Assembly: GCF_025717065.2 (NCBI RefSeq) | Contig: NZ_JAOVZO020000017.1 | Location: forward strand, 186,001-250,000 | From: Tahibacter soli | GTDB taxonomy: Bacteria; Pseudomonadota; Gammaproteobacteria; Xanthomonadales; Rhodanobacteraceae | Reading direction: 5' to 3' | DNA length: 64,000 nucleotides | In this document: positions 18,809 through 30,876 of the stretch, piece after piece | Layout: each line of letters opens with the position of its first letter | Numbering within the stretch: position 1 is the first letter of the stretch | Position numbers and translations under genes: made by a program | Notes under the pieces: generated by a model | Told to the model about the DNA's origin: nothing | Databases searched by the model: none | What the model saw: the letters and a program-made list of their open reading frames with translations, nothing else

Positions 18809-18885
18809 GTCATCCCAGCGCAAGCTGGGATCCAGTTTTTTGCGTTAAGAAGCAACGGCTGGATCCCAGCTTGCGCTGGGATGAC
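18809..18885. repeat. 27-base inverted repeat of the TCATCCC type
   Basis: The left arm (18809-18835) begins GTCATCCCAGCGCAAGC and the right arm (18859-18885) is its perfect complement, with 23 bases between. Each arm is itself nearly palindromic (ATCCCAGC...GCTGGGAT). Related single copies occur at 34392-34420 and 35115-35137. It lies between the ArsR operon and the leu-ilv leader and may act as a structural boundary or mRNA end; no T-run follows. Confidence 0.85.
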
Positions 18886-19027
18886 AAACCCCGGGGTCGC
18901 ATGCATTTGCACGTCCATACGTCCAGACGTCCAAACCCAGGCAACGACGCCAAAAACTACATAAGCACCGGAATTTGACGAATCAGTGCTCCATTGCGCC
19001 GATATCGGTCAAAAATACGCCCCGTAA

Positions 19028-19057
19028 TTGACAGCCCCACAGAATCGCAACTAGCTT
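19028..19057 (+). promoter_or_regulatory. Candidate promoter of the leu-ilv cluster
   Basis: A perfect TTGACA at 19028-19033 is followed after 18 bases by TAGCTT at 19052-19057. The -10 box is weak (three of six matches). If used, transcription would begin at about 19064-19065, the leader peptide's ATG itself. A second candidate -35, TTGACG at 18975-18980, has no clear -10. The exact start is uncertain. Confidence 0.4.
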
Positions 19058-19064
19058 CGGGTCC

Positions 19065-19202
19065 ATGACGCAGCGCAACAGCCACGACCAGAACCGCACC
19101 GCCGAGCTCTCGCTCGGTCTTGCGATCCTGCGTGCGCAGAGCGTCCGAATTTCGCTCGTACTCGTCCTCGTACTTCTTATTACCTCCGGAGGTGCGGGTT
19201 AA
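19065..19202 (+). CDS. Branched-chain leader peptide of the leu-ilv attenuator
   Basis: This 45-codon open frame ends with the run SLVLVLVLLIT just before SGGAG and a TAA. Nine of ten consecutive codons specify Leu, Val or Ile, and several are rare for this GC-rich genome (GTA, CTT, CTT, ATT). That is the hallmark of an ilv/leu attenuation peptide; E. coli ilvL has a similar ending. Low charged tRNA would stall the ribosome here and favour the antiterminator over the terminator at 19241-19275. The ATG has no clear Shine-Dalgarno, so it may be translated as a leaderless message or the start may differ. Confidence 0.85.
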   Translation: MTQRNSHDQNRTAELSLGLAILRAQSVRISLVLVLVLLITSGGAG

Positions 19203-19275
19203 GGGCGCGCGAGTCTGAAACACCAGACGAACGAAACCAGAACCCCGCCTCCGGCAACGGAAGCGGGGTTTTTTT
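19187..19275 (+). terminator. Transcription attenuator in front of leuA
   Basis: The terminator hairpin at 19241-19268 pairs CCCCGC and TCCG with CGGA and GCGGGG around GCAA, and seven T follow (19269-19275). An alternative pairing exists: CGGAGGTGCGGGTT (19187-19200, the end of the leader peptide) can pair with AACCCCGCCTCCG (19241-19253), which destroys the terminator. A small extra hairpin (TCTG...CAGA) lies between. Leader, antiterminator and terminator together form a complete ribosome-mediated attenuator. Confidence 0.87.
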
Positions 19276-19299
19276 ATGCCCGGCCCGCGAACAGCGGCC

Positions 19300-20892
19300 A
19301 TGCAGATGACAAACCCCGACAACACGCAAGCCCCCGACGACACGCGAGTACGCGTGTTCGACACGACGTTGCGCGACGGCGAGCAGGCGCCGGGTTTTTC
19401 GATGACGCGGGCGCAGAAGCTGCGCCTCGCGCACGCGCTCGCCGAACTCGGCGTCGACGTGATCGAGGCGGGCTTTCCGCAGGCGTCCGACGGCGACTTC
19501 GCGTCGGTGCAGGCGATCGCCCGCGATGTGCGCGGCAGCCGCATCTGCGCGCTCGCGCGCTGCCAGACCGGCGACATCGAAACCGCGGCGCGCGCACTCG
19601 AACCCGCGACCGCCGCGCGCATCCACGTGTTCATCGCCACGAGTCCGCTGCACCGCGAGCACAAGCTCGGCATGTCGAAGGCGCAGGTGATCGACGCCGC
19701 CGTCGCCGCCGTGCGCCGCGCGCGTGAACTGTGCACCGATGTGGAATTTTCCGCCGAAGACGCGATGCGCAGCGAACCGGACTACCTCGCCGAGGTGTTC
19801 GCCGCCGTCATCGAGGCCGGCGCCACGACGCTGAACGTGCCCGATACCGTCGGCTACACCACGCCGGCGGAAATGGGCGAGCGCATCCGGTATCTCAAAG
19901 CGCACGTACGCGGCATCGAGCGCGCCGTGCTGTCGGTGCACTGCCACGACGATCTCGGCATGGCGGTCGCCAACAGTCTTGCCGCCGTCGCGGCCGGCGC
20001 GCGCCAGGTCGAATGCACGCTGACCGGCATCGGCGAGCGCGCCGGCAACGCCGCGCTCGAAGAAGTGGCGATGGCGCTGGCGACGCGCGCGGAACTGTTC
20101 GGCGCGGCGACGAACTTGAAAACGCCGAAGCTGTATCCGACCGCGCGCCTCCTCGCGCAGATCACCGGCCAGCCGATTCCGCGCAACAAGGCGATCGTCG
20201 GCGAGAACGCGTTCGCGCACGAGTCGGGCATCCACCAGCACGGCATGTTGAAGCATCGCGGCACGTACGAAATCATGCGGCCCGAAGACGTCGGCTTCGC
20301 GCGCTCGCAGCTCGTGCTCGGCAAGCACAGCGGGCGTCACGCGCTGCGCGAACGGCTTGCCGCGCTCGGCCACCAGCCGGCCGACGCCGAACTCGACCAG
20401 ATCTTCACGCGCTTCAAGACGCTCGCCGACAAGAAGCGCGAAGTGTTCGACAGCGACCTCGAAGCGCTCGCGCTCGGTCGCGACGGCGAAGCGCTCGGCC
20501 CGTGGCGCATCGTGCAGTTGAACGCGACCTCGCACCTGGGCGGCAGCGGCTCGGCGTCGGTGCGCCTCGCGCACGAGGACGGCCGCGGCGCGAGCGAAGC
20601 GGCGATCGGCGACGGTCCGGTCGACGCCGCGCTGCGCGCGATCGGCCGCGCGGTCGGCCAGACGTTCGAACTCGTCGACTTCAACATCCGCGCGCTGTCC
20701 GAAGGCGGCGACGCGCAAGGCCAGGCGACGCTCGGCGTGCGCCACAACGGCAAGGAACTGCGCGGCCGCGGCGTGTCGACCGACATCGTCGAGGCCGCCG
20801 CGCTCGCGGCGCTCGAAATCGCCAACCGTATCGAGCGCGCCACACCCGCATCCACCGCAACGACCCCGCTAGCCGCGGTCAACGACCGCTGA
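19300..20892 (+). CDS. leuA: 2-isopropylmalate synthase
   Basis: LeuA joins acetyl-CoA and 2-oxoisovalerate, the first committed step of leucine synthesis. [16 protein letters not shown] near the start is the catalytic and metal motif, [16 protein letters not shown] carries metal ligands, and [17 protein letters not shown] is the family signature. The C-terminal LeuA dimer domain (leucine feedback) is present. The ATG at 19300 gives 530 residues, normal for the family; an ATG at 19276 directly touches the attenuator's T-run and cannot have a ribosome site, and 19306 is also possible. It is the first structural gene of the cluster. Confidence 0.95.
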
Positions 20893-20901
20893 GGAACGAC
20901 G

Positions 20902-21849
20902 ATGAAAGCGCCCCAACTCATCTGGCACAACGGACGCATCAAGCCGTGGCACGAGGCCACGGTCAACGTCGGCGCGCACGCGCTGCACTACGGGTCGTCG
21001 GTATTCGAAGGCGAGCGCGTCTACGCGACGAACCACGGCCCCGCGTTCTTCCGCCTGCGCGACCACACCGAGCGCCTGTTCCACTCCGCGCGCGTCTACG
21101 ATCTCGACATCGCGTACAGCGCCGACGACATCGACGCCGCGTGCGCGCAAGTGGTGCTCGCCAACAAGCTCGGCAGCGCGTACCTGCGGCCGATCGTGTA
21201 CCGCTCGGGTTTCACCTTCAGCCTCGCGCCGCCGCGCGACACCGCCGTCGACGTCGCGATCATCGCGATCGAATGGGGCAGCATGCACGGCGCCGCCGCG
21301 CTGGAGCAGGGCGTCGACGTCTGCGTCAGCTCGTGGAACCGCGCGGCGCCGAACACCTATCCGAGCGGCGCGAAAGCCGGCGGCAATTACTTGAACAGTC
21401 AGCTGATCGCGCAGGAAGCCGTGCGCGGCGGCTTCGTCGAAGGCATCGCGCTCGCGCCGGGCGGACTCTTGTCCGAAGGCGCCGGCGAGAACCTGTTCAT
21501 CGTTCGCAACGGCAAGATTTATACGCCGACGGCCGGTGCGAGCATCCTGTGCGGCATCACGCGAGACACGGTGATGACGCTCGCGCAGGAACTCGGCTAT
21601 CAGGTGATCGAACAGGCGCTGCCGCGCGAAATGCTGTACTTCGCCGACGAAGTGTTCATGACCGGCACCGCCGCGGAAATCACGCCGGTGCGCTCGGTCG
21701 ACCGCAAGCCGGTCGGCGAGGGCAAGCCCGGTCCGGTGACCCGCGCGCTGCAGCGCGCGTTCTTCGGCCTGTTCGACGGCTCCACCGAAGACCACTGGGG
21801 CTGGCTCACGCCGGTGACCGCGACGGCGTACGCGAAGGAGGCCGCGTGA
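20902..21849 (+). CDS. ilvE: Branched-chain amino acid aminotransferase
   Basis: The 315-residue fold-type IV PLP enzyme does the last step of leucine, valine and isoleucine synthesis. [13 protein letters not shown] is the substrate motif, K158 in [11 protein letters not shown] is the PLP lysine, and [12 protein letters not shown] and [11 protein letters not shown] are family signatures. GAGGAA lies before the ATG, nine bases after leuA. Its TGA overlaps the leuC ATG. Position inside the leu genes, rather than beside ilvD, is unusual compared with enteric bacteria. Confidence 0.95.
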
Positions 21850-23276
21850 TGGCCGCGCGCACGCTCTTCGACAAACTGTGGGACGCGCATGTCGTGCGTC
21901 CCGAAACCGACGCGACGCCGGCGATCCTGTACGTCGACCTGCACCTGATCCACGAAGTGACTTCGCCGCAGGCGTTCGCCGAACTGCGTGCGCGCGGCCT
22001 GACGGTGCGCCGCCCGGAACGCACGCTCGCGACGCTCGACCATTCCACGCCGACGACGCCGCACGACGATCTCGGCCAGCCGGTGTACGCGTCGGAAGAA
22101 GCGGCGGCGCAGGTCGCCGAACTCGAACGCAACTGCGCCGAATTCGGCATCCGCCTCAACGGCTGGGACAGCGAGCACCGCGGCATCGTGCACGTGATCG
22201 GGCCCGAACTCGGCGCGACGCAGCCGGGCATGACGATCGTCTGCGGCGACAGCCACACCTCGACCCACGGCGCGTTCGGCGCGCTCGCGTTCGGCATCGG
22301 CACGACCGAGGTCGGCCACGTGTTCGCGACGCAGTGCCTGTTGCAGCAGAAGCCGAAGTCGCTCGCGATCCACGTCGACGGCGCGCTGCCGGCCGGCGTC
22401 GGCGCGAAGGACCTGATCCTGCACGTGATCGGCAAGATCGGCGTCAACGGCGGCACCGGCCACGTCATCGAGTATCGCGGCGAGGCGATCCGCGCGCTGT
22501 CGATGGACGAGCGCATGACCGTCTGCAACATGTCGATCGAGGCCGGCGCGCGCGCGGGCCTGATCGCGCCCGACGAAACGACGTTCGCGTACCTGAAGGG
22601 CCGTCCGCTCGCGCCGCAGGGCGCCGCGTGGGACCGCGCGGTGGACGCGTGGAAAACGCTGCGCAGCGACGACGGCGCGACGTACGACCGCGAAGTGCGC
22701 ATCGACGCGCGCGCGGTGCGCCCGACCGTCACCTACGGCACGCACCCGGGCATGGCCATCGCGCTCGACGCGCCGGTGCCGGCCGCGGCGAGCCTGCAGG
22801 AGCGCCGCGCGCTCGACTACATGCGCGTCGAGGCGGGCCGACCGGTCGCCGGCATGCCGGTCGACGTCGTGTTCGTCGGCAGCTGCACGAACTCGCGCAT
22901 CGGCGACCTGCGCGACGCGGCCGACGTGCTGCGCGGACGCCGGCTCGACCCGCGCGTGCGCATGCTCGTCGTGCCCGGCTCGGTCGCGATCAAGCGCGAA
23001 GCCGAACGCGAAGGGCTCGACCAGGTGTTTCGCGCCGCCGGCGCCGAGTGGCGCGAACCGGGCTGCTCGATGTGCATCGCGATGAACGGCGATCTCGCGC
23101 AGCCGGGCCAACTGGTCGTCTCCACGTCGAACCGCAATTTCGAAGGACGCCAGGGACCGGGCGCGCGCACGGTGCTGGCGAGTCCCGCGGTCGCCGCCGC
23201 GTCGGCCGTCGCGGGCGTCGTCGCCTCGCCGCAATCGCTTTCTCAGCAACCGCTCTCCCAGGAACAGGCCGCATGA
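21849..23276 (+). CDS. leuC: 3-isopropylmalate dehydratase large subunit
   Basis: LeuC (475 residues) with LeuD isomerises 2- to 3-isopropylmalate through an iron-sulfur cluster. It starts [12 protein letters not shown], shows [26 protein letters not shown], and has the cluster cysteines in [10 protein letters not shown] and [10 protein letters not shown]. The ATG overlaps the ilvE stop, and the stop overlaps the leuD ATG. A Ser/Gln-rich tail ([14 protein letters not shown]) is slightly longer than usual. Confidence 0.96.
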
Positions 23277-23854
23277 CCGCCGTGACCCATGTGCGTTCGC
23301 GCACCGCCGTGCTCGCGCACGAGAACATCGACACCGACCGCATCATCCCGGCGCGGTTTCTGACGACGACCGAGCGCGCGGGCCTCGGCCGCTACGCGTT
23401 CAACGACTGGCGCTGGCGCGCCGACGGCACGCCGAACCCCGAGTTCGTGCTGAACCAGCCGATGGCACGCGGCTGCGAAATCCTCGTCGCCGGCCGCAAC
23501 TTCGGCTGCGGCTCGTCGCGCGAACACGCGCCGTGGGCGCTCGTCGACTACGGGTTTCGCGCCGTGCTGTCGAGCGAGATCGCCGACATCTTCCGCAACA
23601 ACGCACTCAAGAACGGCCTGCTCGCCGTGGTGCTGTCCGAGGCCGAGCATCGCTACCTGCTCGACCATCCGGGCATCGAGCTTGCGATCGACGTCGCCGC
23701 GCAGACGATCGAACTGCCCGACGGCGGACGCTTCACGTTCGCGCTCGATCCGTTCGCGAAGCACTGCCTGATCGCCGGCGTGGACCAGCTGGGCTTTCTC
23801 GTCGGCCACGAGCGCGACATCGCGCGCTTCGAACAAGCACGGGAGGCCGCATGA
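23273..23854 (+). CDS. leuD: 3-isopropylmalate dehydratase small subunit
   Basis: LeuD (193 residues) is the swivel domain partner of LeuC. Signatures are [13 protein letters not shown] near the start, [15 protein letters not shown] and [12 protein letters not shown]. It starts within the leuC stop and ends within the leuB start, so leuC-leuD-leuB are translated as a coupled set in 1:1 ratio. Confidence 0.96.
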
Positions 23855-24924
23855 AAGCGCGCATCGCCGTGTTGCCGGGCGACGGCATCGGCCCCGAGGT
23901 CACGGCCGCGGCGGTCAGCGTGCTGCGCGACGCCGCCGCGCGCGGCGGCCACGAATTCGAATTCAGCGAACACGCGATCGGCGGCTGCGCGATCGACGCG
24001 CACGGCGATCCGCTGCCGGCCGAAACGCTGATCGTGTGCAAGCAGGCCGACGCGGTGCTGCTCGGCGCCGTCGGCGGTCCGCGCTGGTCCGATCCGAAGG
24101 CGAAGGTGCGGCCCGAGCAGGGCCTCTTGCGCCTGCGCGCGGAACTGGGCGTCTACGCGAACCTGCGGCCGGTGCGCGTGCATCCGAAGCTCGCCGCGCT
24201 GTCGCCGCTCAAGAACGAGCGGCTGACCGGGGTCGACCTGCTGTTCGTGCGCGAACTCACCGGCGGCGCGTACTTCGGCGCGAAGACGCGCACGGCCGAC
24301 GTCGCCACCGACGAGACGAAGTACACGACGCAAGAAGTGGAACGCGTCGCGCGCCGCGCCTTTGCGCTCGCGCGCGGCCGCGGTCGCCGCGTCACGTCGG
24401 TCGACAAGGCGAACGTGCTCGAAACCTCGCGCCTGTGGCGCGAAACGGTGCAGCGCGTCGCACACGAGTTTCCCGACGTCGCGCTGGAGCACCAACTCGT
24501 CGATTCGATGGCGATGCTGCTGCTCACGCGCCCGGCCGCGTACGACGTGATCGTCACCGAAAACCTGTTCGGCGACATTTTGACCGACGAAGCCGCGGCG
24601 CTCGCCGGTTCGCTCGGCCTCTTGCCGTCGGCGTCGCTCGGCGACGGCAAGGTGGGCCTGTACGAGCCGATCCACGGCTCGGCGCCGGACATCGCCGGAC
24701 GCGGCGTCGCCAATCCTCTCGGCGCGATCCTCTCGGCCGCGATGCTGCTGCGCCACTCGCTGGGCCTCGCCGACGAAGCGGCGGCGATCGAAGCGGCGGT
24801 CGACCGCGTGCTCGACGCGGGTGTGTCGACGCGCGACCTCGGCGGCGACGCCGGCACGCGCGAAGCGACGGCAGCGGTGCTCGCGGCGCTCAACGAGCGC
24901 GCGGCTTCGAAGGAGGCCGCGTGA
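23851..24924 (+). CDS. leuB: 3-isopropylmalate dehydrogenase
   Basis: LeuB (357 residues) oxidises and decarboxylates 3-isopropylmalate. GDGIGPEV opens the protein, with [43 protein letters not shown] and [13 protein letters not shown], all standard for the beta-decarboxylating dehydrogenases. It overlaps leuD by four bases. The stop is followed immediately by a further ATG at 24924 and then a palindromic repeat before ilvD. Confidence 0.96.
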
Positions 24925-24949: not shown

Positions 24950-24981
24950 CCCTCTCCCCCAAGCGAGCTTGGGGGAGAGGG
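24950..24981. repeat. Palindromic repeat unit between leuB and ilvD
   Basis: Arms CCCTCTCCCCC (24950-24960) and GGGGGAGAGGG (24971-24981) surround a ten-base loop. It is the same unit as the outer parts of the element at 8797-8930. It lies within the leu-ilv operon in the 77-base gap between leuB and ilvD, where it could stabilise the upstream message end or lower ilvD expression. The frame stays open through it. Confidence 0.85.
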
Positions 24982-25001
24982 AGAAAACCCGGAGCAACGC
25001 C

Positions 25002-26651
25002 ATGCGCAGTGACGCGATCAAGACCGGCCCCGACCGCGCGCCCGCTCGCGCCATGCTGCGCGCGACCGGCCTCGACGACGCGGCCATCGCCAGGCCGCTC
25101 GTGGCGGTCGTGCACACGTGGTCGAACGTCAGCCCGTGCAATCTCAACCTGCGCGATCTCGCGCAGGCCGCGAGCGACGGCATCCGCGCGGCCGGCGGCA
25201 CGCCGATCGAGTTCAACACGATCGCCGTGACCGACGGCATCGCGATGGGCACGTCGGGCATGCGCGCCTCGCTCGTCAGCCGCGAAATCATCGCCGACTC
25301 GATCGAACTCGCCGTCGACGGCCACTGCCTCGACGCGATGGTCGTGCTGTGCGGCTGCGACAAGACGATTCCCGCCGCCGCCATGGCGCTCGCGCGGCTC
25401 GACATTCCCGGCGTCGCGCTGTACGGCGGCTCGATCGCGCACGGCCGGCTCGATGCGAAGTCGATCACCGTGCAGGACGTGTTCGAAGCGGTCGGCGCGC
25501 ACGGCGCCGGCAAGCTGTCGACGCAAAAACTGTGCGATGTGGAAAAGCATGCATGTCCCGGCGCCGGCGCGTGCGGCGGCCAGTTCACCGCGAACACGAT
25601 GGCGATGGTGCTGACCGCGCTCGGCCTGTCGCCGCTCGGCGACAACGACATACCGGCGACCGATCCGGCCAAGCGCGACGCGGCGTTCCGCTGCGGCGAA
25701 CTCGCGATGGAATGCCTCAAGCAAGGCCGCACGCCGCGCTCGGTGCTGACGCCGACGGCGTTCCGCAACGCCGCGCGGCTCGTCGCCGCGACCGCGGGCT
25801 CGACGAATGCCGTGCTGCACCTGCTCGCCATCGCGCGCGAAGCCGGCGTGCCGCTGACGCTCGAGGATTTCGAGAGCGCGTCTCGCGACACGCCGGTAAT
25901 CGCCGATCTCAAGCCGGGCGGTCGCTATACGGCGGTCGAACTCTCGGCCGCTGGCGGCACCGCGCTCGTCGCGGGCGAAATGCGCAAGGGCGGCATGATC
26001 GACGACGCGCCGACCGTCACCGGCCGCACGCTGTACGCCGAACTCGACGCGGCGCCCGCGCCGGCGCCGGGCCAGGACGTCGTGCGCGCGACCAACGCGC
26101 CGCTCAAGCCGCGCGGCGGCTATTCGATTCTCTACGGCAACGTCGCGCCGCAGGGCTGCGTGCTCAAGCTCGCCGGTCACGGCCGCGCGCGGCACGAAGG
26201 CCCGGCGCGCGTGTACGACAGCGAAGAGCTCGCGTTCGCGGCGGTGCAAGCGGGCGCGATCAACGCCGGCGACGTCGTCGTGATCCGCAACGAAGGTCCG
26301 GCCGGCGGCCCCGGCATGCGCGAAATGCTCGCGGTGACCGCGGCGCTCGTCGGGCGCGGCCTCGGCAACGACGTGGCGCTGATCACCGACGGCCGCTTCA
26401 GCGGCGCCACGCACGGCTTCATGGTCGGCCACATCGCACCGGAAGCCGCGCGCGGCGGTCCGATCGCGCTCCTGCGCGAAGGCGATCGCATCGTCATCGA
26501 CATGCACGATCGCACGCTGTCTACCGACGCGCCGCTCGAATCGCGCCGCGCCGACTGGCGCGCGCCCGAGCCGAAAGTCACGCGCGGCGTGCTCGCCAAG
26601 TACGCGCAACTCGTCGGCTCGGCCGCCGAAGGCGCGGTAACGCACACATGA
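25002..26651 (+). CDS. ilvD: Dihydroxy-acid dehydratase
   Basis: IlvD (549 residues) converts dihydroxy acids to 2-oxo acids in valine and isoleucine synthesis. The start [24 protein letters not shown] fits the short IlvD class and has GGAG eight bases upstream. Iron-sulfur ligands are expected at C46 (SPCNLNL), CGCDKTIP and [30 protein letters not shown] is the C-terminal signature. An in-frame ATG at 24924 with a strong AAGGAGG, coupled to the leuB stop, would add 26 residues that include the translated repeat; it is less likely because the family starts at MRSD. Confidence 0.94.
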
Positions 26652-26734
26652 ACCCTTTCCTCTTGCGCACCGGGCGGTCCCCCGGGCGTTGAAACCGTAG
26701 AAGACCTTTCAATCATCGAACCCGGAGATACGCC

Positions 26735-27772
26735 ATGACCGCACAAACCCCGACCACCGCCGCCCTGCAATCCGCCAAAGTCGCCGTACTCGGCTACGGC
26801 AGCCAGGGCCGCGCGCATGCGCTGAACCTCAAGGATTCCGGCCTCGACGTCGTCGTCGGCGTGCGCCGCAACGGCCCGTCGTGGGACAAGGCGCGCGCCG
26901 ACGGCCTGAAAGTCGCCGAGCCCGCCGACGCCGTGAAGGACGCCGATCTCATCGCCGTGCTGACGCCCGACATGGTGCAGCCGGCGCTGTACACCGACGC
27001 GATCGCGCCGAACGCGAAGCCCGGCGCGGCGCTGTTGTTCGCGCACGGTTTCAACGTGCACTTCAAGCAGATCGCGCCCCGCGCCGACATCGACGTCGTG
27101 CTCGTCGCGCCGAAGGGCCCGGGCGCGCTCGTGCGCCGCGAATACGAGAAGGGCCACGGCGTGCCGTGCCTGTACGCGATCCACCAGGACGCGAGCGGCA
27201 AGGCGCGCGACAAGGTGCTCGCCTACGCGGCCGGCATCGGCGGCGCCCGCGCGATGCTGATCGAAACGAACTTCGGCGAGGAAACCGAGACCGACCTCTT
27301 CGGCGAACAGGCCGTGCTGTGCGGCGGCGCGACGAAACTCGTGCTCGCCGGCTACGAAACGCTGGTCGAAGCCGGCTACCAGCCGGAAATCGCGTACTAC
27401 GAAGTGCTGCACGAACTCAAGCTCATCGTCGACCTGCTGCACGAAGGCGGCCTCGCGAAGATGCACCAGTTCATCTCCGAGACCGCGCAATACGGCGACC
27501 TCACGCGCGGCCCGCGCGTCGTCGACGGCGACACGAAGGCGCGCATGCGCAAGATCCTCGATGAAATCCAGGACGGCCGCTTCGCGCAGGAATGGGTCGC
27601 CGAGTACCAGGCCGGCAACGGCAACTACCGCGCGTTGAAAAATGCCGATCTCGCTCATCCGATCGAGGCGGTCGGCGCGGGCCTGCGCGCGCGCATGCCG
27701 TGGCTGAACCCGACGCCGGCGCTCGCCGCCGTCCCGACGTCATCCGACGCTCCCCTGAAACGGACGGCCTGA
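26735..27772 (+). CDS. ilvC: Ketol-acid reductoisomerase, class I
   Basis: IlvC (345 residues) isomerises and reduces acetohydroxy acids. The NADPH motif [15 protein letters not shown] is near the start, FAHGFNVHF and [14 protein letters not shown] follow, and the metal-binding [16 protein letters not shown] and [15 protein letters not shown] lie in the knotted domain. Length matches class I (single knotted domain). CGGAG lies upstream of the ATG. The 83-base gap after ilvD shows no terminator. Confidence 0.96.
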
Positions 27773-27774
27773 CC

Positions 27775-29493
27775 ATGGATGGGGGCGGGGACAAACAAGC
27801 CACCGGCAGCGGCGCCGCCGCTGCCGAACCCGCGGCCAGCCTGCCGCGTACCGGCGCGCAGCATCTGCTCGATGCGCTCCAAGCCGAGGGCGTCGACACG
27901 ATCTTCGGCTATCCCGGCGGCGCGATCATGCCGGTGTACGACGCGCTGGTCGATTCGACACTCAAGCACATCCTCGTGCGCCACGAGCAGGGCGCGGCGC
28001 TCGCGGCCGACGGCTATGCGCGCGCGAGCGGCCGCGTCGGCGTGTGCATGGCGACGTCCGGTCCCGGTGCGACGAACCTCCTCACCGGCCTTGCGAACGC
28101 GTATCTCGATTCGGTGCCGATGATCGCGATCACCGGGCAGGTGCCGACGTCGCTGATGGGCACGGATGCGTTTCAAGAGGTCGACGTGTTCGGCATGAGC
28201 CTGCCGGTGGTCAAGCACAGCTACATCGTGCGGCGCGCCGAAGACGTCTACGCCGTCGTGCGCGAAGCGTTCGCGATCGCGCGCGAAGGCCGGCCCGGTC
28301 CGGTGCTGATCGATCTGCCGAAGGACGTCGCGAACGCGCGCGCGGTCGCTCGCGCGGTGCGCCGCGTCACGCGCGCGGCGCCGTCGCCGCACGAACTGCG
28401 TTTCGCCGAAGCGCGCGCGCTGTTGTCGCATGCGAAGAAGCCGCTGCTGTACGTCGGCGGCGGCGTCGGCATCGGCAACGCCGAGCGCGAGCTGCGCGAA
28501 TTCGCGCGGCTGACCGGCATACCGGCCGTCTCGACGCTGAAGGGCCTCGGCGCGTGCGATCCGGACGAGGCGCACTACCTCGGCATGCTCGGCATGCACG
28601 GCAACCCGGCCGCGAACTACGCGGTGCAGGAGTGCGATCTGCTGATCGTCGCCGGCGCGCGTTTCGACGATCGCGCGACGGGCCGCCTCGCGTCGTTCGC
28701 GCCCGAGGCGCGCGTGATCCATCTCGATGCCGATCCGGCCGAGATCGGCAAGCTGCGCGCGTGCGACGTCGGCCTCGTCGGCGACCTGCGCGACCTGTTG
28801 CCGCGCCTCGTGCATCCGGTGGCGATCCGCGCGTGGCAGCGCCGCTGCCGCGTGCTGAAACAGCAGCACGCGTGGCGCTACGACGCGCCGGGCGAAGGCA
28901 TCTACGCGCCGGCGCTGCTCAAGCAGCTGTCGGAGGCGGGCGGCAATCGCCTGATCGTCGCGAGCGACGTCGGCCAGCACCAGATGTGGGTCGCGCAGCA
29001 CTGGCGCGTGCCGTACACCGCGGCGCACCTGTCGTCGGGCGGGCTCGGCACGATGGGCTACGGACTGCCGGCAGCGATCGGCGCGCAGCTCGCGCGGCCG
29101 GGTTCCACGGTCGTGTGCGTGTCGGGCGACGGCTCGATCATGATGAACGTGCAGGAGCTCGCCACGCTCCGGCGCTACGGCATCCCGGTGAAGATCGTGC
29201 TGCTCGACAATTCCAGCCTCGGCATGGTGCGGCAGTGGCAGGAGCTGTTCTTCGAGAAGCGCTACAGCGAAGTGGATTTGTCCGACAATCCCGATTTCGC
29301 CGAAGTGGCGCGCGCGTTCGGCATCCCGGCGTTCGCGATCGAGCGGCGCGACGAAGTCGAAGGCGCCGTGCAGCGCCTCTTGCGCGAGCCGGGTCCGCTG
29401 TTCTGCCACGTCAAGATCGACGCGCGCGAGAACGTCTGGCCGCTCGTGCCGCCGGGCAAGTCGAACGGCGAAATGATGGGGTGCGCGGCATGA
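27775..29493 (+). CDS. ilvG: Acetolactate synthase large subunit
   Basis: The 572-residue TPP enzyme makes 2-acetolactate or 2-aceto-2-hydroxybutyrate. The catalytic glutamate lies in VRHEQGAALAADGYARA, PGATNLLTGLANAYLDSVP follows, and the TPP motif is GDGSIMMNVQELATL. It begins two bases after the ilvC stop and overlaps the small subunit gene (ATGA). A Gly/Ala-rich N-terminal extension of about 20 residues precedes the conserved TGAQHLLDALQAEGV. Confidence 0.94.
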   Translation: MDGGGDKQATGSGAAAAEPAASLPRTGAQHLLDALQAEGVDTIFGYPGGAIMPVYDALVDSTLKHILVRHEQGAALAADGYARASGRVGVCMATSGPGATNLLTGLANAYLDSVPMIAITGQVPTSLMGTDAFQEVDVFGMSLPVVKHSYIVRRAEDVYAVVREAFAIAREGRPGPVLIDLPKDVANARAVARAVRRVTRAAPSPHELRFAEARALLSHAKKPLLYVGGGVGIGNAERELREFARLTGIPAVSTLKGLGACDPDEAHYLGMLGMHGNPAANYAVQECDLLIVAGARFDDRATGRLASFAPEARVIHLDADPAEIGKLRACDVGLVGDLRDLLPRLVHPVAIRAWQRRCRVLKQQHAWRYDAPGEGIYAPALLKQLSEAGGNRLIVASDVGQHQMWVAQHWRVPYTAAHLSSGGLGTMGYGLPAAIGAQLARPGSTVVCVSGDGSIMMNVQELATLRRYGIPVKIVLLDNSSLGMVRQWQELFFEKRYSEVDLSDNPDFAEVARAFGIPAFAIERRDEVEGAVQRLLREPGPLFCHVKIDARENVWPLVPPGKSNGEMMGCAA

Positions 29494-29738
29494 CCTGCAG
29501 CCTGGAGCTCGCGCTGGATCGGGCCGAAGGCGCGCTGCTGCGCGTGCTGGGAACGATAGAACGCCGCGGCTGGAACGTCGTCGCGGTCAATGCCGCAACG
29601 CACGCCGATGCGTACGCCGTGCGAGTGACGCTCGACGGCGCGCGCGATGCGCAGATCCTGTGCCGCCAGCTCGAACGGCTCGTCGACGTGCGCCAGGTGC
29701 GCCTCGTCGGCGCCGACGAGGCGGCACGCTGCGCCTGA
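29490..29738 (+). CDS. ilvM: Acetolactate synthase small subunit, IlvM-like ACT protein
   Basis: This 82-residue protein is a single ACT domain (LELALDRAEGALLRVLGTIERRGWNVVAVNA), the size of IlvM rather than the longer IlvN/IlvH. It starts in the ilvG stop codon, so the two subunits are translated together. IlvM binds the large subunit and raises its activity; IlvM-type enzymes are poorly inhibited by valine in E. coli, which may also hold here (inference). Confidence 0.87.
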   Translation: MTCSLELALDRAEGALLRVLGTIERRGWNVVAVNAATHADAYAVRVTLDGARDAQILCRQLERLVDVRQVRLVGADEAARCA

Positions 29739-29795: not shown

Positions 29796-29927
29796 ATGAA
29801 CACGAACCCCATCCAGATCCAGAGCATTCGAATTATTCGCGCGTCGTCGATCCGTAAGGCCCCCTCCCTCGCCTGCGAACGCCGCCATGACCGCGCACAC
29901 CGAACTCGCCGACTCGTATCACGATGA
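29796..29927 (+). CDS. Isoleucine-rich mini-ORF overlapping the deaminase start
   Basis: A 43-codon frame with a good ribosome site (GAGGAA, six bases before the ATG) begins MNTNPIQIQSIRIIR. Six of its first 19 codons are isoleucine, including ATT-ATT in tandem. It ends 41 bases inside the downstream deaminase gene in another frame. The deaminase itself has no clear ribosome site, so its translation may be coupled to this frame. This suggests an isoleucine-sensing leader, but no family supports it and it could be chance. Confidence 0.5.
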   Translation: MNTNPIQIQSIRIIRASSIRKAPSLACERRHDRAHRTRRLVSR

Positions 29928-30876
29928 AACGTCCGTCTTCGATTCAACGCCGGTCGCGCCAGCGATGCCGGCGCCGCTGCATATCGTGACGCCGCTGATC
30001 CGTGCGCGCGTTCACCATCTGTCGGTCGGCTTCAAGCTCGACAACCTCCAGCCGGCGCGCTCGTTCAAGCTGCGCGGCATCGGCCGCCTGTGCCAGCACT
30101 ACGCCGCGCGCGGCGTGCAACGCTTCGTGTGTTCCTCGGCCGGCAACGCCGGCTACGCGGTCGCGTGGGCGGGGCGCGCGCTCGGCATTCCCGTCACCGT
30201 GGTGATTCCCGAAACGACCTTGCCGTTCATGCGCACGCGCATTGCCGCGCTTGGCGCCGAGGTGCGCTGCGAAGGCCGCGTATGGGACGACGCGAACGCC
30301 GCGGCGCTCGAGCTCGCGCAAGCGCCGGATACGGCCTACATCCCGCCGTTCGATCACCCGCTGCTGTGGGAAGGCCACGCGTCGCTCGTCGTAGAACTCG
30401 CGCGGCAATGCGACGAAGCGCCGGACGCGATCCTCGTCGCGGTCGGCGGCGGCGGTCTGTTGCTCGGCGTGCTCGAAGGGCTGCGCCGCGTCGGCTGGCG
30501 GCATACGCGCGTGATCGCGGCCGAGCCGGAAGGTTCGGCGTCGCTCGCGCCGAGTCTCGCGCAGGGAAAAGTCGTGGAGCTGGCGTCGCCGAAAAGCGTC
30601 GCGACGAGCCTGTGCGTGCGGCGCATCGCGCCGGCGCTGATCGACGCGTGCCGCGGCGGCACGGTCGTGCCGGTGACGGTGAGCGACGCGGAGGCGGAAA
30701 ACGCGTGCGTGCGCTTCGCCGAGGAACACGGGCAGATGATCGAACCGGCGTGCGGCACGGCGCTGGCGCCGTTGTATGCGAATCACCCGAGTCTGGCGGG
30801 AATGCGACGCGTGGTCGCGGTGGTTTGCGGGGGGCAGGTCGTGACGCTCAGGCAGCTCGCCGACTGGGGCTGCTGA
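29887..30876 (+). CDS. PLP-dependent serine/threonine deaminase, SDH type
   Basis: The 329-residue fold-type II PLP enzyme has its lysine at K61 in ARSFKLRGIG. CSSAGNAGYAVAWAGRALG, IPPFDHPLLWEGHASLVVELA and VGGGGLLLGVLEGL resemble animal-type L-serine dehydratases more than E. coli IlvA. It lacks the C-terminal regulatory ACT-like domain of biosynthetic threonine deaminase. As the last gene of the leu-ilv cluster it most likely makes 2-oxobutyrate from threonine for isoleucine. A catabolic serine deaminase is the alternative. Confidence 0.83.
   Translation: MTAHTELADSYHDETSVFDSTPVAPAMPAPLHIVTPLIRARVHHLSVGFKLDNLQPARSFKLRGIGRLCQHYAARGVQRFVCSSAGNAGYAVAWAGRALGIPVTVVIPETTLPFMRTRIAALGAEVRCEGRVWDDANAAALELAQAPDTAYIPPFDHPLLWEGHASLVVELARQCDEAPDAILVAVGGGGLLLGVLEGLRRVGWRHTRVIAAEPEGSASLAPSLAQGKVVELASPKSVATSLCVRRIAPALIDACRGGTVVPVTVSDAEAENACVRFAEEHGQMIEPACGTALAPLYANHPSLAGMRRVVAVVCGGQVVTLRQLADWGC

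Follow-up and report, generated by a model that had tools for sequence, protein, structure and literature searches.

A putative ribosome-mediated attenuator with a probably leaderless leader peptide upstream of the leu-ilv gene cluster of Tahibacter soli

In Escherichia coli, the ilvL leader is an example of one attenuator sensing several branched-chain amino acids (BCAAs). The available text of PMC11857589 describes, for the ilvBNC operon of Corynebacterium glutamicum, a leaderless attenuator whose IlvL peptide contains Leu, Val, and Ile codons. The joint sensing of Leu, Val, and Ile, which a first-pass annotation of the locus studied here had put forward as worth documenting, is thus already known from both of these leaders. 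In Sinorhizobium meliloti, the 5' end of the trpL attenuator RNA coincides with the ATG of the leader frame, as reported in the available part of PMC7298713, and polycysteine-encoding leaderless short frames of mycobacteria are amino acid-responsive attenuators (Canestrari 2020, as cited in the accessible text of PMC9031893).

The present locus belongs to a 64-kb stretch of DNA of Tahibacter soli (family Rhodanobacteraceae, order Xanthomonadales), referred to below as the window. The same annotation had proposed a complete ribosome-mediated attenuator in front of leuA, and this proposal has held up, since the codon run, the pairing segments 2 and 3, and the terminator are all present and widely conserved. 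We consider it highly likely that the region encodes a ribosome-mediated transcription attenuator with a leaderless leader peptide, serving the cluster leuA-ilvE-leuCDB-ilvD-ilvC-ilvG-ilvM-ilvA, and that a shortage of Leu, Val, or Ile very probably switches the cluster on through the leader. The leaderless start is the point that goes beyond the earlier finding, and it is more unusual than the joint sensing.

Leader frame, promoter, and start of transcription

The leader peptide frame is located on the plus strand at positions 19065 to 19202, with its ATG at 19065, 45 codons, and a TAA stop codon at 19200 to 19202. Its translation is MTQRNSHDQNRTAELSLGLAILRAQSVRISLVLVLVLLITSGGAG, the C-terminal end of which reads SLVLVLVLLITSGGAG, and the putative control codons L-V-L-V-L-V-L-L-I, as read from the frame and the codon tables, occupy positions 19155 to 19181. 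The 45-codon Leu-Val-Ile frame noticed ahead of leuA is real: when the window was scanned on both strands for ATG frames with at least 8 Leu/Val/Ile codons among 11 inside the last 22 codons, this frame was the only one of its type, and 60 dinucleotide-preserving shuffles of the window yielded none. The peptide had no NCBIfam or Pfam match up to an E value of 10, and neither the Rfam leader families nor the T-box matched at gathering score anywhere in the window; with E values up to 1, the lone Rfam match within 18900 to 19350 was an unrelated sRNA scoring 12.4 bits. On the minus strand, long open frames at 18957 to 19736 overlap the attenuator and leuA, and these are taken as chance frames of GC-rich DNA.

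A DNA search with positions 19020 to 19310 found matches in 124 of 147 genomes of the family, the genome of origin included. All 124 matching loci were read, and 121 of them contain a leader, defined here as a frame in which 7 or more of 11 codons are Leu/Val/Ile; L146 and L168, which have no such frame, and L192, which gave no BLAST hit, were left out of the 121. Downstream, leuA comes first among the pathway genes in 119 cases and ilvD in the other 2. The ends of the leader are conserved, with LVLVLLIT.GGAG at the C-terminus and M-S/T/P-QRNSH at the N-terminus, and its middle is variable; despite the differing middle parts, the Leu-Val-Ile run and the position of the stop codon are kept in the 121 leaders. 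A survey of leader position covering 71 of the 80 named loci from the LeuA listing placed the leader before leuA in 20 of them (L031 to L048, L094, and L100), assigned to Tahibacter, Dyella, Rhodanobacter, Luteibacter, and related Lysobacterales records, whereas it did not stand directly before leuA in four Lysobacter loci (L072, L074, L076, and L098) and one Dokdonella locus (L086). Among the matches listed, the closest named LeuA is that of Tahibacter caeni, which is 87% identical to the protein of the window.

Upstream of the frame, a -35 box TTGACA is present at 19028 to 19033, recognized in the sequence and in the 121 family leaders, and is followed on the plus strand after an 18-nt spacer by a -10 box TAGCTT at 19052 to 19057, for which the family consensus is TANGGT. 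When TTGACA was searched from -44 to -30 relative to the ATG of the family leaders, the best match was complete (6 of 6 bases) in 112 and one base short in 9, its first T lying 35 to 38 nt before the ATG, as against 0.6% with 6 of 6 and 8.1% with 5 of 6 bases among 2376 other ATGs of the same loci used as a control. The -10-like hexamer, taken as the best one between -20 and -9, starts 12 to 14 nt before the ATG in 116 of 121 leaders, leaving a gap of 6 to 8 nt between its end and the ATG, and TTGACA sits 17 to 18 nt above it in 118. The base preceding the leader ATG is C in 114 of 121. The usual distance from a -10 box to +1 would put the start of transcription on the A of the leader ATG or directly beside it. 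Given the fixed distance of both boxes from the ATG, we deem the leader mRNA to be probably leaderless, with transcription starting at or next to this A; in the window, the distance of the -10 box and the C at -1 point to a start at 19065 on the plus strand, at or within one or two bases of the A.

The same attenuator could instead be carried by an ordinary mRNA whose promoter lies further upstream and which has a 5' untranslated stretch. In the window, the -10 box is indeed weak, sharing 3 of 6 bases with TATAAT, for which reason the leader promoter was not listed by a simple consensus scan of the plus strand, and Shine-Dalgarno-like 4-mers occur within -20 to -5 in 22 of the 121 leaders, in a stretch that overlaps the -10 box. 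The recurrent promoter geometry described above argues against such an arrangement, as does the short gap between the -10 box and the ATG, which leaves almost no space for a Shine-Dalgarno box; none was seen by eye upstream of the leader ATG in the window. On this evidence we regard an untranslated 5' stretch as improbable and retain the leaderless start.

A 25-base repeat, GTCATCCCAGCGCAAGCTGGGATCC, occurs as an inverted pair at 18809 to 18833 and 18861 to 18885, upstream of the leader promoter. It has 76 matches in the genome with up to two mismatches (35 forward and 41 reverse), the reversed pattern giving 0 in a control search, and we take the pair to be a REP-like palindrome.

The start of the frame, ATG-NCG-CAR-CGC-ANC-ANC-CAY (19065 to 19085, plus strand), is conserved across the 121 leaders: NCG is found at codon 2 in 113, ANC at codon 5 in 112, and ANC at codon 6 in 107. 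Where codon 2 encodes Ser it is TCG in 58 of 60 cases, and where codon 6 does so it is AGC in 69 of 70; in nine genes of the window, TCG and AGC make up 52% and 27% of the Ser codons. Codons 5 and 6 keep their outer bases and vary in the middle one, giving N, T, or S, and the NCG of codon 2 gives S, T, or P. Since the outer bases stay fixed while the encoded amino acids change, the constraint would act at the nucleotide level, and the conserved start is probably a nucleotide-level element. Conservation of the first seven or eight codons but not of the middle would also be explained if the leader peptide acted in trans, as reported for peTrpL of Sinorhizobium; the change of amino acids at codons 2, 5, and 6 under a preserved nucleotide pattern speaks against this, and we hold such a function to be very unlikely.

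Leaderless initiation may itself be part of the sensor, although we regard this extension of the attenuator as doubtful. The fixed distance between promoter and ATG together with NCG-CAR-CGC-ANC-ANC would then make up a ribosome-capture element, which puts the first ribosome onto the emerging RNA and keeps it in step with RNA polymerase, standing in for the ribosome-binding site and the pause hairpin. If so, the attenuator would answer, besides tRNA charging, to conditions that promote or hinder leaderless initiation (free 70S ribosomes, IF3, and the 5' phosphate), and the fixed distance would date far back in the history of BCAA attenuators, a view prompted by its recurrence ahead of Leu-rich frames of other Gammaproteobacteria and, if one -35 mismatch is allowed, of three Planctomycetes.

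Alternative RNA structures and control codons

Downstream of the frame, folding and covariation identify an intrinsic terminator, composed of segments 3 and 4 and followed by seven T, at 19239 to 19275 on the plus strand. Segment 3, its 5' half (19241 to 19254), can alternatively pair with segment 2, which is the end of the leader frame (19186 to 19200); the pairing of 19187 to 19200 with 19241 to 19253 noted earlier was therefore correct to within one base. Segment 1, within the control codons (19167 to 19177), can in turn form 11 bp with 19188 to 19198. Single-sequence folds also place an apical hairpin of the long antiterminator stem at 19213 to 19228; in relatives, the antiterminator is likewise folded as one long stem with an apical hairpin, and inspection by eye found alternative pairings at the same place. 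RNAalifold predicted four of the pairs around segment 2 and no more.

The folding energies bear out both main structures. The terminator fold of 19238 to 19275 has -24.6 kcal/mol (z -6.4) and the antiterminator fold of 19179 to 19255 has -38.8 kcal/mol (z -5.1), neither energy being reached by any of 200 shuffles, whereas the segment 1:2 hairpin, at -13.5 kcal/mol (z -2.1), was equalled by 5 of 200. Over the 121 leaders, the mean is -25.4 kcal/mol for the terminators and -28.4 kcal/mol for the antiterminators, the latter taking in some loci, such as L111, where the stretch was cut too short. A perfect complement of at least 8 bases between the last 20 nt of the frame and the region after the stop codon is found in 107 of 121 leaders, compared with 1.4% when the ends are shuffled. 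Because of an inner mismatch in its stem, the terminator at 19239 to 19275 was not listed by the simple consensus scan of the plus strand.

Covariation was assessed in alignment A1, which consists of 54 of the 121 leaders, thinned at 88% similarity, with the row of L161 lacking its first codons. In the terminator, 5 of 11 pairs show two-sided changes, a number as high being reached by 0 of 500 shuffles. The 8 pairs of the antiterminator core are formed in 97.4% of cells, as against 35 to 63% when the core is slid; a single pair shows two-sided change, which 189 of 500 shuffles also reach, since most of its pairs hardly vary. For the segment 1:2 helix, 91.9% of cells are paired and covariation is weak, and the helix scores higher when slid by -2 (0.072 versus 0.046).

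That the frame is not translated, the region being a constitutive terminator or a riboregulator bound by a protein or metabolite, would fit the strong terminator but not the frame, Leu-Val-Ile run, and stop position kept in 121 leaders with differing middles, the adjoining pathway genes, or the lack of an Rfam family match, and we give this account hardly any credence.

We infer transcript start, ribosome stalling, and termination from the sequence, and the attenuator would operate as follows. RNA polymerase would start on the A of the leader ATG or beside it, and a ribosome would load once the 5' end emerges. When Leu-tRNA, Val-tRNA, and, to a lesser extent, Ile-tRNA are charged, the ribosome would reach the stop codon at 19200 and cover segment 2, the terminator would form, and leuA and the genes after it would not be transcribed. 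When these tRNAs are short of charge, the ribosome would stall on the control codons and cover segment 1, leaving segment 2 free to pair with segment 3, by which the terminator would be blocked and the genes transcribed. The front edge of a stalled ribosome lies about 12 nt ahead of the A site. A stall on the Leu and Val codons at 19155 to 19178 would accordingly leave all or nearly all of segment 2 free, while one on the Ile codon at 19179 would cover about six of its bases, so that Ile should act weakly. This Ile codon is also the only one in the run of nine, which would make the signal mainly one of Leu and Val. Inside segment 2, at 19188 to 19193, is the Shine-Dalgarno word GGAGGT, with no suitably spaced start codon in the window; its two codons are kept as GGA in 111 and as GGT in 110 of the 121 leaders.

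The first-pass annotation had also stressed the rarity of the GTA, CTT, and ATT codons. This applies to part of the run, which holds two GTA, two CTT, and one ATT, and not to the other four codons, three CTC and one GTC, which are common. Over the last 19 codons of the 121 leaders, Leu is encoded by CTT in 50%, CTC in 47%, and CTG in 2%, Val by GTA in 79%, and Ile by ATT in 92%; the respective values are 1.3%, 49%, 43%, 2.8%, and 6.6% in the background, which consists of nine genes of the window only, the leaders being drawn from many genomes. Seven codons ahead of the stop, 118 of 121 leaders have ATT, and at position -12, outside the helix, 77 of 82 Val codons are GTA. The bias of the leaders toward CTT, GTA, and ATT is real. 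We rejected the segment 1:2 pairing as its full cause, since synonymous codons drawn at gene frequencies fold better: in 54 leaders, the native segment 1:2 region has -12.2 kcal/mol versus -15.9 with such codons, and drawing them at leader frequencies gives folds of nearly the native strength (-11.9 kcal/mol, P = 0.07). CTT and CTC are read by one shared tRNA. Theory, according to the available text of PMC1183508, holds that control codons are chosen by the sensitivity of their tRNA and not by rarity as such, and a choice of this kind may account for the Leu codons.

Gene cluster and range of the element

After the leader come ten genes on the plus strand. NCBIfam models above their cut-offs identify leuA (19276 to 20892; 2-isopropylmalate synthase, starting at ATG 19276, 19300, or 19306), ilvE (20902 to 21849), leuC (21849 to 23276), leuD (23276 to 23854), leuB (23854 to 24924), ilvD (25002 to 26651; the match spans 24966 to 26648, and the start, placed at ATG 25002, is uncertain), ilvC (26735 to 27772), and ilvG, encoding the acetolactate synthase large subunit (27772 to 29493; start uncertain). 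The last two are an ilvM-like small-subunit gene (29490 to 29738), with 43.5 bits against a cut-off of 68, and an ilvA/tdcB-like threonine dehydratase gene (29887 to 30876), whose best NCBIfam score is 166 bits against a cut-off of 331. All ten may be cotranscribed from the leader, although their control by a single signal, as put forward in the first-pass annotation, is a weaker claim than the attenuator itself. There is room for further control, in view of gaps of 83 nt before ilvC and 148 nt before ilvA, a weak promoter-like site at 26689 to 26716 before ilvC (1 found by the consensus scan, with 0.4 expected by chance), and an inverted repeat at 24950 to 24981 between leuB and ilvD, with 15-base arms ccctctcccccaagc and gcttgggggagaggg around a 2-base centre ga, possibly a hairpin for mRNA stability or processing or another REP-like element.

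A covariance model, R1, was built from 37 leaders (alignment A2, a subset of the 54 in A1) and, at E values up to 0.01, found matches in 212 of 299 genomes of the order, in many of them two or more. Conservation of the Leu/Val/Ile run and the hairpins in related genomes, on which the earlier proposal depended, is thus seen both in the 121 of 124 family loci and across the order. In 37 matching loci fetched from outside the family (L240 to L276), which were chosen among the better-scoring matches and cover seven families, the next gene is in every case a same-strand pathway gene, namely, ilvD in 20, ilvC in 10, leuA in 5, and ilvG in 2, and the expected position is occupied by the end of a frame in which Leu/Val/Ile codons make up 6 to 11 of 11. 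If one mismatch is allowed, TTGACA precedes an in-frame ATG by 35 to 38 nt in 35 of these 37 loci as read by eye, L275 and L276 being without this geometry; the automated count was 29 of 37, six rows having picked a TTG adjoining the ATG. The presence of leaders before ilvD, ilvC, leuA, or ilvG indicates that the element is not special to the merged leu-ilv cluster, and a single type of attenuator may have been duplicated or retained ahead of several BCAA operons of the order. A second copy in the genome of origin was considered and rejected: the next R1 match (L277, E value of 0.002) has neither a BCAA gene nor a frame and is taken as chance, and the same lack of a BCAA gene and a leader-like frame was noted at two more weak R1 places (L278 and L279).

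Across the class, a survey of 274 genomes gave 10 genomes with an R1 match at E values up to 1e-5, 3 in the order and 7 outside it. Two of these seven were read, L282 and L285, and in both a short Val/Ile-rich frame precedes a T run; with AGGAG ahead of its ATG, L285 resembles either a leadered relative or an attenuator that arose by convergence. We further examined 60 more loci from the LeuA listing (L049 to L110 without L094 and L100). In 22 of them, a T run follows a short frame that has 7 or more Leu/Val/Ile codons among 11 and stands 40 to 300 nt before ilvC or leuA. Of these 22, 12 have TTGACA, with no more than one mismatch, 35 to 38 nt before the ATG; the other 10 are without this promoter distance, which shows that the trait is not general. 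When the T run is not required, frame and promoter distance occur together in 33 of the 80 listed loci and in 0 of 80 on the reverse strand.

One of the 12, L077, has a leader identical to that of L163 from the family of the window. The other 11 are, by their record titles, outside the order or unplaced, and comprise eight proteobacterial metagenome-assembled genomes (MAGs) and three Planctomycetes; in these 11 loci, a hairpin of -17.9 to -27.6 kcal/mol precedes a T run that ends 55 to 79 nt after the stop codon. The eight MAG loci (L058, L059, L063, L065, L066, L070, L075, and L080; Woeseiaceae, Chromatiales, Nevskiales, and others) have Leu-rich frames with 5 or 6 of 6 bases of TTGACA and a terminator, before ilvC-leuA or leuA. 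In the Planctomycetes (Stieleria, Rubripirellula, and Roseiconus), Leu-rich frames precede leuA at 2212 to 2305 of L089, 2233 to 2296 of L090, and 2245 to 2326 of L091, with TTGACC (5 of 6 bases) 36 to 37 nt before the ATG; each frame is followed by a strong hairpin and a T run. By their sequence features, these may be leaderless attenuators for leucine in another phylum.

Should the leaderless start hold true, most of the sampled genomes of the order, judged by the 212 of 299 with a match, would control BCAA synthesis without a ribosome-binding site at the leader, and the loci would offer a large natural set, spread over several operons, for testing the coupling of leaderless ribosomes with RNA polymerase. 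Among the literature matches listed, which were judged by titles and the beginnings of abstracts and mostly fell outside subscription journals, there was no earlier report of this leader in Xanthomonadales, and this is weak evidence. If attenuators of the order have been described before, Vitreschak 2004 (FEMS Microbiol Lett 234:357) is the most likely source. The element is not named in the available portions of PMC2965389, PMC8632094, PMC1262725, and PMC1183508, the sole mention of Xanthomonas in that of PMC2965389 being an rpsL leader. Regulation of ilvCGM-leuA in Xanthomonas campestris has been studied with a fusion carrying roughly 500 bp from upstream of ilvC (PMC12575087), and in the part of the main text available to us the strings "attenuat" and "leader" have 0 occurrences each; by analogy with the loci described here, leader attenuation suggests itself as a candidate mechanism for the regulation reported there.

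Comparison with described attenuators

The mechanism proposed is classical attenuation, which is known, and the leaderless form would be the variant. Compared by description with the leuL, ilvL (ilvGMEDA), and ilvB leaders of E. coli and Salmonella, the locus shares the peptide rich in end-product residues and, as predicted, the alternative 1:2, 2:3, and 3:4 pairing; those leaders differ in having an untranslated 5' stretch with a ribosome-binding site, and their leu and ilv genes form separate operons. The mycobacterial short frames respond to cysteine and are described, in the accessible text of PMC9031893, as controlling the translation of downstream genes. The Caulobacter ilvBN/ilvIH leader resembles the present one as an Ile-Val leader with a terminator in Proteobacteria, but it belongs to Alphaproteobacteria and to another operon (available text of PMC4117421). 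With trpL of S. meliloti the locus would share the 5' end of the leader RNA at the leader ATG, deduced here from promoter distance; trpL differs in its amino acid, Trp, its peptide of 14 residues, its alphaproteobacterial host, and the trans functions reported for it (PMC7298713, in the part available). The ilvBNC attenuator of C. glutamicum, leaderless and with codons for all three BCAAs, differs in that it is found in Actinobacteria, with a peptide of 15 residues, other genes, and other hairpins, as far as the available text of PMC11857589 describes it.
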